Shown here: piece by piece, positions 21,529 to 42,398 of the stretch
Position numbering within the stretch: the stretch's first letter is position 1
Layout: every line of letters begins with the position of its first letter
NCBI GenBank assembly: GCA_902543145.1
Contig: CACBXG010000010.1
Coordinates: 1 to 46,938, forward strand
DNA length: 46,938 nt
From: an uncultured SAR116 cluster alpha proteobacterium
GTDB taxonomy: Bacteria; Pseudomonadota; Alphaproteobacteria; Puniceispirillales; Marisalimonadaceae
Reading direction: 5' to 3'
Notes under the pieces: model-generated
Database searches by the model: none
What the model was told of the DNA's origin: nothing
What the model saw: only the letters and a program-made list of their open reading frames with translations
Made by a program: the position numbers and the translations under genes

Positions 21529-23238
21529 CTAAAATAAAAAATATCTCTGAGCCATAGGTAATTCTGTAGCTGGCTCGCAGGTAAGAATTTCCCCATCAGC
21601 TGTAACCTCATATGTTTCAGGATCAACTGAAATATCTGGGCAATAATTATTATAAACCATATCTTTTTTTGAGATATCTCTTGTTTTCTCCACCGCAACA
21701 GTATTTTTAGCAAGTTCTAATGAATCTAAACTTCCAGATTCAATAGAATCTTTACTTACAAAAGTAATTGAAGATGTCTCTAGGGACCTTCCATAAGAAG
21801 AAAACATTGGTCTTGTATACACAGGTTGTGGAGTTGGAATTGATGCGTTAGGATCACCCATTTGAGCACAAGCAATGCTTCCACCAAGCATCACAATCTC
21901 TGGCTTTACTCCAAAAAAAGCTGGATCCCATATCACAATATCAGCTCTTTTACCTTCAGTTATTGAACCTATATGTTTAGATAGACCGTGAGTTATAGCT
22001 GGATTAATTGTATATTTAGCTACATATCTTTTAACTCTAACATTATCATTATCACCTTTTTCTTCTTGTAGACGACCTCGTTGAACTTTCATTTTGTGAG
22101 CTGTTTGCCAAGTTCTGATAATAACTTCTCCAACCCTTCCCATTGCTTGACTGTCGGAAGCTATAATTGAAAAGGCACCTAAATCGTGGAGGATATCCTC
22201 TGCAGCTATAGTCTCTTTTCTAATCCTGCTTTCGGCAAAGGCAACGTCTTCTGGAATTGATTTATCTAAATGATGACATACCATAAGCATATCCAAATGC
22301 TCTTCTAAAGTATTAATAGTATAGGGTCTTGTTGGATTGGTTGATGATGGTATTACATTTTCATTCCCGCACACTTTAATGATATCAGGAGCATGTCCTC
22401 CACCAGCACCTTCTGTATGAAAGGCATGAATTGTTCTATTATTAATAGCTTTTATAGTATTCTCCACAAATCCACTTTCATTTAATGTATCTGTATGTAT
22501 CATTACTTGAACATCCATTTTGTCAGCTACATTTAGACAGTTATCTATAGCACCAGGAGTGGTTCCCCAATCTTCGTGTAATTTCAGTGCGCAAGCCCCA
22601 GCATTTACTTGTTCAATTAATCCCTCTGGTTTAGAAGAATTCCCTTTACCAGCAAATGCAAGATTCATAGAAAAAGCATCCGCTGATTGTATCATTTTAC
22701 CTATATGCCAAGATCCAGGTGTGCATGTTGTCGCCAATGTTCCATGAGCAGGTCCAGTACCACCTCCTAACATTGTTGTTAAACCTGAGTGGAGAGCATC
22801 ATCAATTTGTTGAGGACATACATAGTGGATGTGAGAGTCAAATCCTCCAGCTGTAATGATTTTACCTTCACCTGCGATTATTTCTGTGCCAGGTCCAATA
22901 ATAATATCAATTTTTGGTTGAGTATCAGGATTTCCAGATTTTCCAATTTTTTGAATAATACCATCTTTAATTCCAATATCGGCTTTAAATATTCCATTCA
23001 CATCAACAATCAGTGCGTTTGTAATAACAGTGTCAACGGCGCCATCTTTTCTTGTAACTTGTGACTGGCCCATACCGTCTCTAATTACTTTTCCACCGCC
23101 AAATTTTACTTCCTCGCCATAGATTGTTAAATCATTTTCAACTTCTATAAACAAGTCTGTGTCAGCCAATCTAACTTTGTCACCAGTCGTAGGGCCAAAC
23201 ATTTCTGCATATGATGATCTTGTTATTTTTGAACTCAT
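21529..23238 (-). CDS. ureC: Urease alpha subunit UreC
   Basis: A 569-residue catalytic subunit at the usual length. The nickel ligands are all present: His136 and His138 in DSHIHYV, the carbamylated Lys219 in ALKLHEDWG, His248 in MIHTDT, His274 in [15 protein letters not shown], and Asp362 in ASDSQAMGR. The flap residues Cys321 and His322 are in MVCHHLD. The enzyme hydrolyses urea to ammonia and carbamate, giving the cell nitrogen. The ATG shares one base with the ureB stop (TAATG). No residue needed for activity appears lost, so I expect an active enzyme if nickel is available. Confidence 0.97.
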
Positions 23239-37510: not shown

Positions 37511-38638
37511 TTAAGTTAATATTTGTTTTTGAATTTCATTATCTTTTAATAAATCACTTAAAGTTTCGGTTATCGCTGTTGTTCCCATATCACCTCCAAA
37601 TTCTATTGGTCTTAATTCATTTCTTTCAAAACCAATTTCAATTGCAGTCTCAATTAATCTAGAACCTAATAAAGTACTTTTACAACTTGTTTTATCAGAT
37701 AGATATTCGAGCATCAGAGCTGCACTTAAAATAGTAGCTATCGGATTAGCCTTATCCTGTCCGAGTATATCAGGCGCACTTCCATGGGCAGGTTGAAATA
37801 ACCCGTGATTATCACCTATTTCAGCACATGAGGCCATACCCATCCCTCCTATCAGGCCTCCTCCTAAATCAGATAATATGTCACCAAACATGTTTTCCAT
37901 TACCATTACATCATATTCCCAAGGATTTCTGATCAAGTTAAGTGCCATTGCATCAACATAACAATGGTCAGCATCTATATCTTTGAATTTAATTTTTCTT
38001 TCATCAAATATTTTCCTGAAAAATGCCTGTGATCTGAAAACATTAGCTTTATCTACACAAGTAACTTTTCCTAATTTCCCTTTTTTCTTTCTTTGTCTTG
38101 CTAATTTAAATGCAAAATCATGTAATTTTTCAGTAGTTGCTCTAGTTATTTTCATTACATCTTGTACTTCTTGATCATTTTCAACAGGACATCTGTTATG
38201 AACAGCAGCAGTGTAAAATAATCCTTCAGTAGATTCTCTTAAAATAACTAAATCTATATTTCTAGATAATTCATTACTTAATTTATTTGGTATGTTTTTG
38301 TATGCTTTAACTGGTCTAACACCAGCGTACAAGCCAAACATTTCTCTAAATCTTAGGTGAGGGCATATTTCAGTTCCATCTTTATGACGAACACTAGGCA
38401 ACCCAATTGCACCTAAAAAAATACTATCGAGTTCATCAACTTTTTTTTCTCCTCCTGGTTCAACATCTTTTCCAGTCAAAGAATAATATTCAGCTCCTGC
38501 TTTGATCATATGCCATTCGCATTTAAATCCACCTGTTACTTTTGAAGACAAGTCAACAATTGAAATAGCTGAATTTACTATGTCTTTACCTATCCCATCG
38601 CCAGGCACTGTAGCTATCTGAAATTCATTATTATTCAT
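37511..38638 (-). CDS. Isopropylmalate/isocitrate dehydrogenase family protein
   Basis: A protein of about 375 residues. PGDGIG is at residues 12-17, then RESTEGLF, a catalytic lysine in TCVDKANVFRS, the aspartates of MFGDILSDLGGG, and HGSAPDI near the adenine site, which fits NAD. It oxidises and usually decarboxylates a 2-hydroxy acid with a 3-carboxylate. It differs from the two TtuC-like genes at 1819 and 44199 in having RESTEGLF in place of RENTEGEY, so it may have another substrate. I prefer ATG 38638 over the in-frame TTG at 38650, which has no ribosome site. First gene of an operon with the ABM and kinase genes. Upstream lie a Fur box and a structured leader. Confidence 0.83.
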   Translation of the reverse strand: MNNNEFQIATVPGDGIGKDIVNSAISIVDLSSKVTGGFKCEWHMIKAGAEYYSLTGKDVEPGGEKKVDELDSIFLGAIGLPSVRHKDGTEICPHLRFREMFGLYAGVRPVKAYKNIPNKLSNELSRNIDLVILRESTEGLFYTAAVHNRCPVENDQEVQDVMKITRATTEKLHDFAFKLARQRKKKGKLGKVTCVDKANVFRSQAFFRKIFDERKIKFKDIDADHCYVDAMALNLIRNPWEYDVMVMENMFGDILSDLGGGLIGGMGMASCAEIGDNHGLFQPAHGSAPDILGQDKANPIATILSAALMLEYLSDKTSCKSTLLGSRLIETAIEIGFERNELRPIEFGGDMGTTAITETLSDLLKDNEIQKQILT

Positions 38639-38696
38639 GCGTGATACCAAATTTTTTTAATAAAATATTACTTAGGTCAATTAACATTTACAATGA

Positions 38697-38736
38697 TTTA
38701 ATAGATATTTGTAATTTATAAAAAAAATCTATTAAA
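38697..38736. repeat. 10-bp inverted repeat
   Basis: TTTAATAGAT at 38697-38706 is the exact reverse complement of ATCTATTAAA at 38727-38736, with a 20-base loop. Read on the minus strand, a run of eight T's begins within the first arm and continues into the loop. This could act as a weak stop point for a short minus-strand transcript or be a leader hairpin. All but two base pairs are A-T. Confidence 0.35.
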
Positions 38737-38760
38737 GTTATAAATTTTTAAATGAAATGA

Positions 38761-38804
38761 GGATGAACTTAATTAATCTTGGGAGATATATATTGAGTTC
38801 ATCC
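38761..38804 (-). repeat. 9-bp hairpin at the 5' end of a predicted minus-strand transcript
   Basis: GGATGAACT at 38761-38769 pairs perfectly with AGTTCATCC at 38796-38804 around a 26-base loop. On the minus strand the stem begins two bases after the predicted transcription start, and the loop contains TCTCCC, complementary to a Shine-Dalgarno GGGAGA. A 5' hairpin with a C-rich loop is common in small regulatory RNAs. The stem has four G-C pairs, which is unusual in this AT-rich gap. Confidence 0.5.
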
Positions 38805-38812
38805 ATATATTT

Positions 38813-38841
38813 GTAATAATGATAATAATTATCATTGTCAA
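38813..38841 (-). promoter_or_regulatory. Predicted minus-strand promoter with Fur box in the spacer
   Basis: Read on the minus strand, a perfect TTGACA (38841-38836) and TATTAC (38818-38813) are separated by exactly 17 bases, and those 17 bases are the core of the Fur palindrome. The predicted start is near 38806. The fbpA promoter at 39935 has the same arrangement. It would drive a leader or small RNA and perhaps the dehydrogenase operon at 38638, repressed by iron-loaded Fur. Confidence 0.55.
38818..38836. promoter_or_regulatory. Fur box (perfect 9-1-9 palindrome)
   Basis: AATGATAATAATTATCATT is a perfect palindrome and its core TGATAATAATTATCA matches the 7-1-7 Fur consensus at every defined position. 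It occupies the spacer of a minus-strand TTGACA promoter and lies about 114 bases upstream of the mbfA start. A Fur-family gene is present at 41994. Confidence 0.8.
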
Positions 38842-38859
38842 TAATATATTTATTTATTT

Positions 38860-38874
38860 TAATAATTATTATCA
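38860..38874. promoter_or_regulatory. Second Fur box upstream of mbfA
   Basis: TAATAATTATTATCA matches the 7-1-7 Fur consensus with one mismatch. It lies 75 bases upstream of the mbfA ATG and about 24 bases from the first box. It may control mbfA, or reinforce Fur binding at the divergent promoter. Confidence 0.6.
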
Positions 38875-38949
38875 TTTGCAAAAATAAATAATAAATTCAA
38901 TGACTTATTAATTAAACTAATATATTAAAAAACTCTTTGGGAATGCATT

Positions 38950-39924
38950 ATGTACAAATCTTTAATAAAAAAGAAATTTCAAGACTTAAATGATAATGAA
39001 ATATTATCTTTTGCAATTGATAGTTTAGAAGAAGATATAAAATTATATGATGAGTACTCTTCACATTTTCTTATAAATTACCCAGTAACATCAAAAATGT
39101 TTAAACAAATGTCTATTTTAAAAAATAAAAATAGAAAAAAATTAGTTGAATTACATAAAAAAAAATTTGGTGAGACTTTAAGTATTACTAACCACAAAGA
39201 AATTGCTAATTATTTTAAAAGAAAACCTGAATGGTTGGTAATAAAGAATTCTATTGAAAAAGTTAGAAACGAAATTATTGAAATGGAAACTTTGTCTGCT
39301 AAATTTTATAATTCCTTTGCTAAAAAATCACAAAATATTGAAATTAGAAATTTACTTATTGACTTAGCATTAATGAGTAGAGAGCAGAAAGATAATGCTA
39401 AATTGATATTATTGAATGCTCAAAAATCACGAAGTGCCAAAGAGGAAGTTACTAAAGATAAAAGGCAGTTTATTTTAACATGGGTCCAGCCAGGTCTTGC
39501 CGGTCTTATGGATGGATCAGTTTCAACTTTAGCTCCAATTTTTGCTACTGCTTTCGCAACAAAAGACAGTCATACAACATTATTAGTTGGTTTAGCAGCA
39601 TCTATAGGAGCTGGAATTTCAATGGGTTTTACAGAAGCTGTACATGATGATGGAGTAATATCAGGGAGAGGTTCACCAATAAAGCGAGGGTTTGCCTCAG
39701 GCATTATGACCACAATAGGGGGGTTAGGTCATGCACTCCCATATTTGATTTCTGACTTTTATGTTGCAACAGTGATTGCAATGTTTTTTGTACTAGTTGA
39801 GCTTTGGGCTATTGCTTGGATACAAGCTAAATATATGGAAATTAAATTTACAAAAGCCGTGTTTCAAGTGGTTTTTGGTGGATCACTAGTTCTAGCTGCT
39901 GGTATATTAATAGGTGGAGGTTAA
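38950..39924 (+). CDS. mbfA: MbfA-like membrane iron exporter (ferritin-like domain fused to VIT1)
   Basis: A 324-residue fusion. Residues 1-165 are a helical, erythrin/ferritin-like domain. Residues 175-322 are a VIT1/CCC1-type membrane domain: WVQPGLAGLMDGSVSTLAP near 178-196, ISMGFTEAVHDDG near 223-235, SGRGSPIKRG near 238-247, and about five hydrophobic segments. In rhizobia and Agrobacterium MbfA exports iron and protects against iron and peroxide stress. Here the ferritin domain looks degenerate: the expected ExxH of helix 2 reads MSILKNKNRKKL and that of helix 4 reads EQKD, so both histidine ligands seem lost, though Glu27/28 and Glu111/113 remain. It is divergent from the dehydrogenase operon, and followed by the Fur-controlled fbpA promoter. 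Confidence 0.85.
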   Translation: MYKSLIKKKFQDLNDNEILSFAIDSLEEDIKLYDEYSSHFLINYPVTSKMFKQMSILKNKNRKKLVELHKKKFGETLSITNHKEIANYFKRKPEWLVIKNSIEKVRNEIIEMETLSAKFYNSFAKKSQNIEIRNLLIDLALMSREQKDNAKLILLNAQKSRSAKEEVTKDKRQFILTWVQPGLAGLMDGSVSTLAPIFATAFATKDSHTTLLVGLAASIGAGISMGFTEAVHDDGVISGRGSPIKRGFASGIMTTIGGLGHALPYLISDFYVATVIAMFFVLVELWAIAWIQAKYMEIKFTKAVFQVVFGGSLVLAAGILIGGG

Positions 39925-41993: not shown

Positions 41994-42398
41994 TTATTTT
42001 TTAATTTTTTTCCCAAATAACTCTAATCTATGATCTACTAGTTCATATCCCATATTTAGAGCTACCTGTCTTTTCATTTCTTCTAGTTCTTCGTTCTGAA
42101 ATTCAATTATTTCACCACTCTCAACATCAATTAAATGTTCATGATGTTCGCCAGCTTCTTCATATCGAGATCTACCGTCACCAATATCTAATCTTTCAAT
42201 TATTCCAGCCTCTTCAAATAATTTGATTGTTCTGTAAACAGTTGCGATTGAGATTGAACGATCTTTTTCAACAGCTCTTCTATACATTTCATCCACATCA
42301 GGGTGATCAGCTGAATCCTCGATTACTTCTAGTATAATTTTTCTAGGCAATGTCATTCTCAGACCGTTTTTTATACATTTCTCATAAAGTTGGGCCAT
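41994..42398 (-). CDS. fur: Fur family ferric uptake regulator
   Basis: A 134-residue Fur protein. The recognition helix is SISIATVYRTIKLFEEAGI near residues 48-66. GEHHEHLID near 83-91 binds the regulatory metal, and EFQNEELEEM follows. The only cysteine is Cys8, so the structural CxxC zinc site of E. coli Fur is absent, as in many alphaproteobacterial Fur/Mur proteins. It senses Fe(II), or Mn(II) if it is a Mur, and binds the palindromes found at 38818, 38860, 39942, 39966 and 41929. AGGA upstream supports the ATG. It lies 61 bases after fbpB on the same strand. A weak Fur-like site at 42418-42432 suggests autoregulation. Confidence 0.9.
   Translation of the reverse strand: MAQLYEKCIKNGLRMTLPRKIILEVIEDSADHPDVDEMYRRAVEKDRSISIATVYRTIKLFEEAGIIERLDIGDGRSRYEEAGEHHEHLIDVESGEIIEFQNEELEEMKRQVALNMGYELVDHRLELFGKKIKK

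Follow-up and report, generated by a model that had tools for sequence, protein, structure and literature searches.

A conserved, apparently Fur-controlled RNA element very likely resides upstream of a dehydrogenase operon in bacteria of the SAR116 cluster. The element was identified on the minus strand of a window (the whole stretch of DNA analyzed, 46,938 nucleotides) from a genome of 1.9 Mb, made of 69 contigs and 76% complete. Promoter, palindrome and hairpin recur under constraint in 22 further genomes, and it is mainly this conservation that excludes chance. According to the explanation favored here, held with a confidence just short of even, the product would be a Fur-repressed, Hfq-independent, iron-sparing RNA acting in trans, similar to IsrR and FsrA, rather than a pure leader. 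The first-pass annotation of this DNA can be regarded as confirmed in its observation, and as partly supported in its interpretation.

Coordinates are given in Table 1. The annotation had described, on the minus strand, perfect TTGACA and TATTAC hexamers flanking a 17-bp Fur palindrome, and both letters and coordinates are right. The palindrome is perfect about its middle base, with a 7-1-7 core at 38820–38834; placed between the –35 and –10 hexamers, and conserved, it qualifies at the sequence level as a Fur operator overlapping the promoter. TTGAC lies outside the symmetric palindrome, and its invariance therefore points to a promoter. A promoter scan of 1.5 kb returned 10 sites, with no excess over the 10.9 found in shuffles; the promoter of the element is missing from the list because the scan wants T at the last –10 position, which is C here. 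Transcription is predicted to start at about 38806. The 9-bp hairpin with a 26-base loop containing UCUCCC, noticed in the annotation near this site, is present, and the conserved hairpin extends from the predicted +1. Its arms on the minus strand are GGATGAACT (38804–38796) and AGTTCATCC (38769–38761), and the 26-nt loop (38795–38770) includes TCTCCC in the DNA. The 110-nt stretch 38806–38697 folds with a z score of –4.2, and 1 of 200 shuffles was equally good. Nothing reached the Rfam gathering score at this locus, where only a miRNA model was hit, on the opposite strand (E 1.8). Elsewhere in the window one Rfam match, to 5_ureB_sRNA, passes this threshold (85.7 bits, gathering score 40); it occupies 22797–23085 (+) and runs antisense to the early part of the urease alpha gene.

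Table 1. Position of the element and of surrounding features in the window.
Feature	Position	Strand	Basis
–35 hexamer TTGACA	38836..38841	minus	sequence letters; TTGAC invariant in 22/22 aligned sequences
Fur-type palindrome, 17 bp, ATGATAATTATTATCAT, between –35 and –10	38819..38835		sequence match; predicted Fur operator
–10 hexamer TATTAC	38813..38818	minus	sequence letters
Conserved 5' hairpin: 9-bp outer stem and inner AUCU/AGAU stem	38761..38804	minus	folding, covariance model, constraint
Invariant loop segment TATCTCCCAAGATT, proposed pairing region	38775..38788	minus	22/22 aligned sequences and 18 distinct hairpins
U-run and 10-bp inverted repeat	38697..38736	minus	arms 38736–38727 and 38706–38697; perfect in this genome only
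Second Fur-like palindrome TAATAATTATTATCA, one mismatch, closer to mbfA	38860..38874		pattern match
Isocitrate/isopropylmalate-dehydrogenase-family gene, downstream	37511..38635	minus	Pfam Iso_dh
ABM and 3-oxo-tetronate-kinase-like genes	after dehydrogenase gene		kinase: NCBIfam OxoTetrKin, 520.8 bits (cut-off 350)
mbfA-like gene, divergent	38950..39924	plus	NCBIfam FeExpMbfA, 444.5 bits, slightly below cut-off 450
Fur-family regulator	41994..42398	minus	Pfam FUR, E 4.2e-37; NCBIfam Fur, 96.4 bits, below cut-off 146

The element was aligned as 22 distinct sequences from 23 genomes. Neither the stem nor the TTGACA-17-TATTAN spacing, whose loss in relatives the annotation had considered, is lost: TTGAC, the 17-bp spacing, most palindrome letters and most hairpin letters are constant throughout. 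The –10 letters vary, and TATTAA, TATTGT, TATCAA or TACTGT are found in relatives. All 14 positions of the loop segment listed in Table 1 are invariant, in the alignment as in the hairpins used to build the covariance model. Identity was measured in 7 representatives of three clades (21 pairs). Promoters are 86–97% identical and hairpins 79–98% (79–90% between clades). Between clades, the spacer running from the hairpin to the dehydrogenase gene reaches 49–64% identity, a level which differs from that of shuffled spacers by no more than 0.05. At third codon positions of the dehydrogenase gene the identical fraction is 0.43–0.56 in the 12 pairs which compare clade 2 with the others, and 0.63–0.86 between clades 1 and 3. 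As clades 1 and 3 have a similar gene and a dissimilar spacer, the histories of gap and gene differ in part, probably because of recombination. Whatever these histories, in the sequences compared the hairpin is kept where the neighboring spacer is not. When the gap was compared by blastn to the 40 genomes of the genus, the alignment ended directly after the hairpin in several of the more distant members.

These data predict a conserved RNA fold whose loop is available for pairing. Compensatory stem changes, which the annotation had proposed to look for in related genomes, are no more frequent than in shuffles (2 pairs with double changes), and slides of +2 and +3 columns score higher; because hairpin letters hardly vary, covariation is uninformative. 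Stem pairing involves 88% of the cells in register and 27–36% when slid, a difference which is partly a consequence of how the structure was chosen. The constraint is very unlikely to stem from an encoded short peptide, whether leaderless or of the leader type (MNS-YISQD-like). The frame of ATGAACTCAAGCTATATCTCCCAAGATTGA is open in several genomes, but is shifted by 2-nt length differences in G030, G019, G002 and G003, and ends early in G038 and G010 (all by eye); the peptide was dismissed on these frame changes and early ends.

The U-run and the 10-bp inverted repeat which the annotation placed farther downstream are present as well, but do not hold as a functional part of the element. Eight aligned relatives of the same clade feature TCTAAAAGAT, TATAAAAGAT or TCTATAAGAT instead of TTTAATAGAT, and nothing similar was found in the alignments of the other two clades; the repeat was dismissed, being perfect in this genome only. 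T-runs were found in the 10 genomes of the same clade (T6–T8) and in 4 others (T5–T6), and are missing in 9. No terminator-like site was detected in the interval 38000–39500, and read-through into the operon is therefore likely.

A covariance model (R1), made from 18 distinct hairpins, was run with the stricter filters of Infernal, which drop weak matches. Matches were found in 23 of the 136 genomes of the order, corresponding to 23/40 in the genus and 0/96 outside, at one place per genome (66.7–85.7 bits); extra reverse-strand rows denote the same places as the forward ones. The 17 genomes of the genus with no match are not clean negatives, many of them being incomplete. Contigs of G027 (L030), G034 (L029) and G035 (L037) end at or beside the element, perhaps due to AT-rich inverted repeats. 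The element is absent, though both flanking genes are present, in G024 and G039 (in the genus) and in G043 and G044 (outside); the mbfA loci of these four genomes and of G047 gave no match to the covariance model. A search for the hairpin pattern in 84,980 species genomes returned 23 stretches, 21 of which are labelled as SAR116 cluster or alpha proteobacterium single cells or assemblies. Matches in Nitrospira and Desulfosporosinus were discarded, as they feature neither such a promoter nor a model match. Viral contigs gave no match.

The dehydrogenase gene follows on the same strand in 23/23 genomes, about 98–126 nt from the hairpin to the start; the count includes G001, in which the dehydrogenase ORF continues into a different gene, perhaps because of an assembly chimera. 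The divergent upstream neighbor is mbfA in the clade of the window and in G013. In the other clades it is a ferritin-domain gene of the bacterioferritin type (Pfam Ferritin), with a BFD-like gene nearby in some, and in G005 and G014 another, inserted ORF adjoins the element. In the genomes compared, the neighbor on the iron-storage side varies and that on the operon side does not, which is the main argument for viewing the hairpin as nothing else than the 5' leader of the dehydrogenase/ABM/kinase mRNA. Fur would then control the operon, and the hairpin would shield the 5' end or bind a protein or a metabolite, with no action in trans. Such a leader has a considerable chance of being the correct explanation, although one clearly below even. 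The lack of a terminator-like site fits it. Furthermore, when the spacers of three genomes were compared with shuffled versions, their top promoter-like sites did not surpass those of the shuffles, so that a separate dehydrogenase promoter was rejected, leaving the Fur promoter as the best candidate for the operon. Against a leader, the spacer is unconserved between clades, and no conserved expression platform (terminator or sequestration of the Shine-Dalgarno sequence) is visible in it: the spacer is near-shuffled, and pairing between loop and start region is lacking. In all 23 genomes contiguous complementarity of the loop to the dehydrogenase start measures at most 6 nt (–3.7 to –9.8 kcal/mol), and the loop is thus invariant with no cis partner at the start codon. 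Moreover, the four genomes mentioned above which have both flanking genes keep the dehydrogenase beside mbfA with no RNA.

Two observations concern the same neighborhood. In G002 and G003 (loci L041 and L042) mbfA and the gap are 91–96% identical to those of the window, and the dehydrogenase 82%, a step which suggests recombination with a breakpoint inside the dehydrogenase gene. The block CAATGACTTA is found upstream of mbfA at 38898–38907 (+) and is perhaps part of a promoter. As judged by eye on its first nine or ten letters, it recurs before the mbfA or bfr-like gene in all aligned relatives other than G005 and G014.

A Fur-family gene is found 3 kb from the element. The sequence TGATAATNATTATCA occurs with no mismatch at one place in the whole 1.9-Mb genome. 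When up to one mismatch is allowed, the 7-1-7 pattern has 4 matches and its reversed form 2; as pattern frequency alone is weak, the argument is carried by position and conservation. The gene next beyond mbfA encodes a solute-binding protein, presumably an iron carrier given the adjoining ABC permease and what is known of FbpA-type proteins. It features a promoter of like build, TTGACA-TTGATAATAGTTATAG, and the gap before it, in which TTGACATTGATAATAGTTATAG resembles the promoter of the element, contains imperfect copies of the palindrome (2–3 mismatches). In G044, a perfect palindrome lies directly before the homologue of this gene. Fur-type palindromes were also seen 182–198 nt upstream of a rhodopsin-like gene in 13/29 loci, among the matches listed (one locus per genome): one in the genome of the window (L149 1501–1515, corresponding to C5:51931–51945) and 12 in genomes of the genus. 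The Pfam assignment Bac_rhodopsin covers the G000 protein only. A light-driven pump may thus be subject to iron control in these genomes.

The ability of the UCUCCC loop to pair with Shine-Dalgarno sequences, as put forward in the annotation, is supported in part. When ATCTTGGGAGAT was searched in the genome of the window, one perfect place was found besides the RNA itself, and this is the Shine-Dalgarno sequence of a 4Fe-4S gene. The site had been viewed as lying 63 nt before an ATG, a placement dismissed because the frame opens further upstream. An in-frame TTG, replaced by ATG in G043 and G044, follows the Shine-Dalgarno sequence at about 7–8 nt. The gene is divergent from a formate-dehydrogenase-like operon, which includes DUF3305, DUF3306, a TorD-like chaperone and a molybdopterin/4Fe-4S protein; the latter is truncated in the excerpt examined, and its best NCBIfam model, formate dehydrogenase alpha, is below cut-off. 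In G005 and G013, corresponding to 2/17 loci scanned (L368 1864–1878 and L369 2927–2941), the part of this cluster which links the DUF3306 gene to the TorD-like gene contains a Fur palindrome.

The 4Fe-4S leader was read in 21 genomes of the family with a strong match. Among the 11 RNA-bearing genomes which yielded the gene, loop and Shine-Dalgarno sequence are complementary over 13 nt in 9 and over 11 nt in 2 (G020, G026). In genomes lacking the RNA the same site matches over 12–15 nt in G044, 8 nt in G043 and G039, and 5–6 nt in G041 and G042, depending on the RNA used. Among five genomes in which the element is broken or of unknown status, G021, G025 and G034 carry the exact 10-mer CTTGGGAGAT, and G012 and G035 a version with a single mismatch. 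The gene was not retrieved from 12 of the 23 RNA-bearing genomes, three of which are 88–90% complete. The match is thus consistent where the RNA is present, but G044 and others show that it does not depend on the RNA, and a Shine-Dalgarno sequence is conserved anyway. The 4Fe-4S gene is best viewed as a candidate target, the one which recurs across clades.

Pairing at the 4Fe-4S site (13 nt, –21.9 kcal/mol) exceeds the best of 124 other gene starts (8 nt, –14.4 kcal/mol), a comparison which is unfair because the site was chosen by a genome-wide search. Shuffled loops, tried 200 times over the 124 starts, gave a mean maximum of 9.0 nt and a top value of 13 nt. If stem letters are included, the start of the urease alpha gene (Pfam) reaches –24.5, on a par with the 4Fe-4S site. 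Complementary sites are not in excess, either in the genome of the window (ATCTTGGGAGAT with up to 2 mismatches: 68+77, versus 74+66 for the reversed sequence) or in 58 genomes searched with the 10-mer (122 places versus 128 reversed, 23 of the 122 being the RNA itself). Among the 99 places other than the RNA 87 were read; the remaining 12 lie in other genera. Further candidates were rejected. At moaA, whose leader was readable in 26 of 29 cases, one of them (G006) cut off at a contig end, the exact 10-mer is found only in G000, G019, G025, G033 and G037, and is missing from the RNA-bearing G003, G005, G010, G014, G015, G016, G017 and G029. A gene which we take to be CoxM-like has the exact site only in G000 and in G044, and the TorD-like gene in G026 only. 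Pairing with the starts of the bfr-like gene and of mbfA is weak (–5.6 to –11.1 in 20/23 genomes), no start having been found for G013, G014 and G015.

The constraint might alternatively act on the DNA, through a non-Fur regulator binding the inverted arms or the quasi-palindrome ATCT-CCCA-AGAT. Palindromic symmetry is seen in the loop core and, in several genomes, in the 4Fe-4S site (CAATCTTGGGAGATTG or TAATCTTGGGAGATTA). The latter, however, coincides with a Shine-Dalgarno sequence, and constraint spans arms and loop from +1, with hairpin length changes sitting beside the invariant core, features which make a DNA site improbable.

No match to Hfq (Pfam PF17209) was found in the 40 genomes of the genus, of which 5 are at least 90% complete and most are incomplete; the control search gave matches in 5/14 named genomes, including Caulobacter. 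The genus is apparently Hfq-free, within the alphaproteobacteria. Pairing by the RNA would accordingly need to be Hfq-free, as for IsrR. In PMC9410917, IsrR of Staphylococcus is described as an iron-repressed, Fur-regulated and Hfq-independent RNA of an AT-rich host. Its C-rich regions, some of which reside in hairpin loops, meet Shine-Dalgarno sequences, the mRNA of fdhA (formate dehydrogenase) being among the targets, and its first stems have conserved letters and little covariation (PMC9410917). The SAR116 element shares an AT-rich host, predicted Fur-type control, a C-rich loop, little covariation and a formate-dehydrogenase-linked target, which is a candidate here. In contrast, at least two hairpins and three C-rich regions are present in IsrR, whose targets have been tested, whereas the SAR116 element has a single conserved hairpin with no terminator seen, and its candidate target is the 4Fe-4S gene beside the operon rather than the catalytic subunit. 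On account of the C-rich pairing to Shine-Dalgarno sequences, the low covariation and the fdhA target, IsrR appears to be the closest functional parallel; no homology is claimed.

FsrA of Bacillus subtilis, Fur-regulated according to a reference title in PMC11005374, has a C-rich motif which binds Shine-Dalgarno sequences and needs Fbp chaperones (PMC9410917). Motif and control are alike, the former being proposed and the latter predicted for the SAR116 element; reliance on Fbp chaperones may set FsrA apart. The enterobacterial RyhB is described in PMC9410917 and PMC11005374 as Fur-repressed, iron-sparing and Hfq-dependent. It is similar in Fur repression and in the iron-sparing role proposed here, and differs in its dependence on Hfq, which was not found in the genus; no Rfam family, RyhB included, matched the locus at the gathering score. 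RusT of Caulobacter is an RNA of iron starvation which is controlled by NtrYX, acts together with Hfq and in many cases targets membrane transporters (PMC11005374). It resembles the SAR116 element as an alphaproteobacterial iron-starvation RNA, and differs in NtrYX control, Hfq and transporter targets. AbcR/ar15 RNAs of rhizobia are alphaproteobacterial and feature CUCCC-type loops; the likeness is one of general description, and the sole Rfam match in the window at the gathering score lies elsewhere. A literature search, most subscription papers apart, found no such RNA for SAR116.

In the favored explanation of an iron-sparing RNA acting in trans, iron-loaded Fur would sit on the palindrome between the –35 and –10 hexamers and block transcription, and the promoter would fire at low iron, as suggested by sequence and conservation. 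The RNA would open with a hairpin whose 14-nt loop, UAUCUCCCAAGAUU, stays constant, a step well supported by the comparison. The C-rich loop may then act in trans, pairing with the Shine-Dalgarno regions of genes for iron-using proteins and reducing their translation with no need for Hfq. Iron scarcity would in this way lead to production of the hairpin RNA, which may stop the production of iron-hungry enzymes. More tentatively, the element may represent an Hfq-free, Fur-controlled RNA family of SAR116, which has arisen between iron-storage and sugar-acid genes, would silence Fe-S protein synthesis through an invariant anti-Shine-Dalgarno loop, and possibly also serves as the 5' end of a metabolic mRNA. 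If this is true, alphaproteobacteria would gain an iron-sparing RNA of their own, in an ocean lineage where Hfq was not found, and the C-rich-loop solution of the AT-rich staphylococci would have arisen again.
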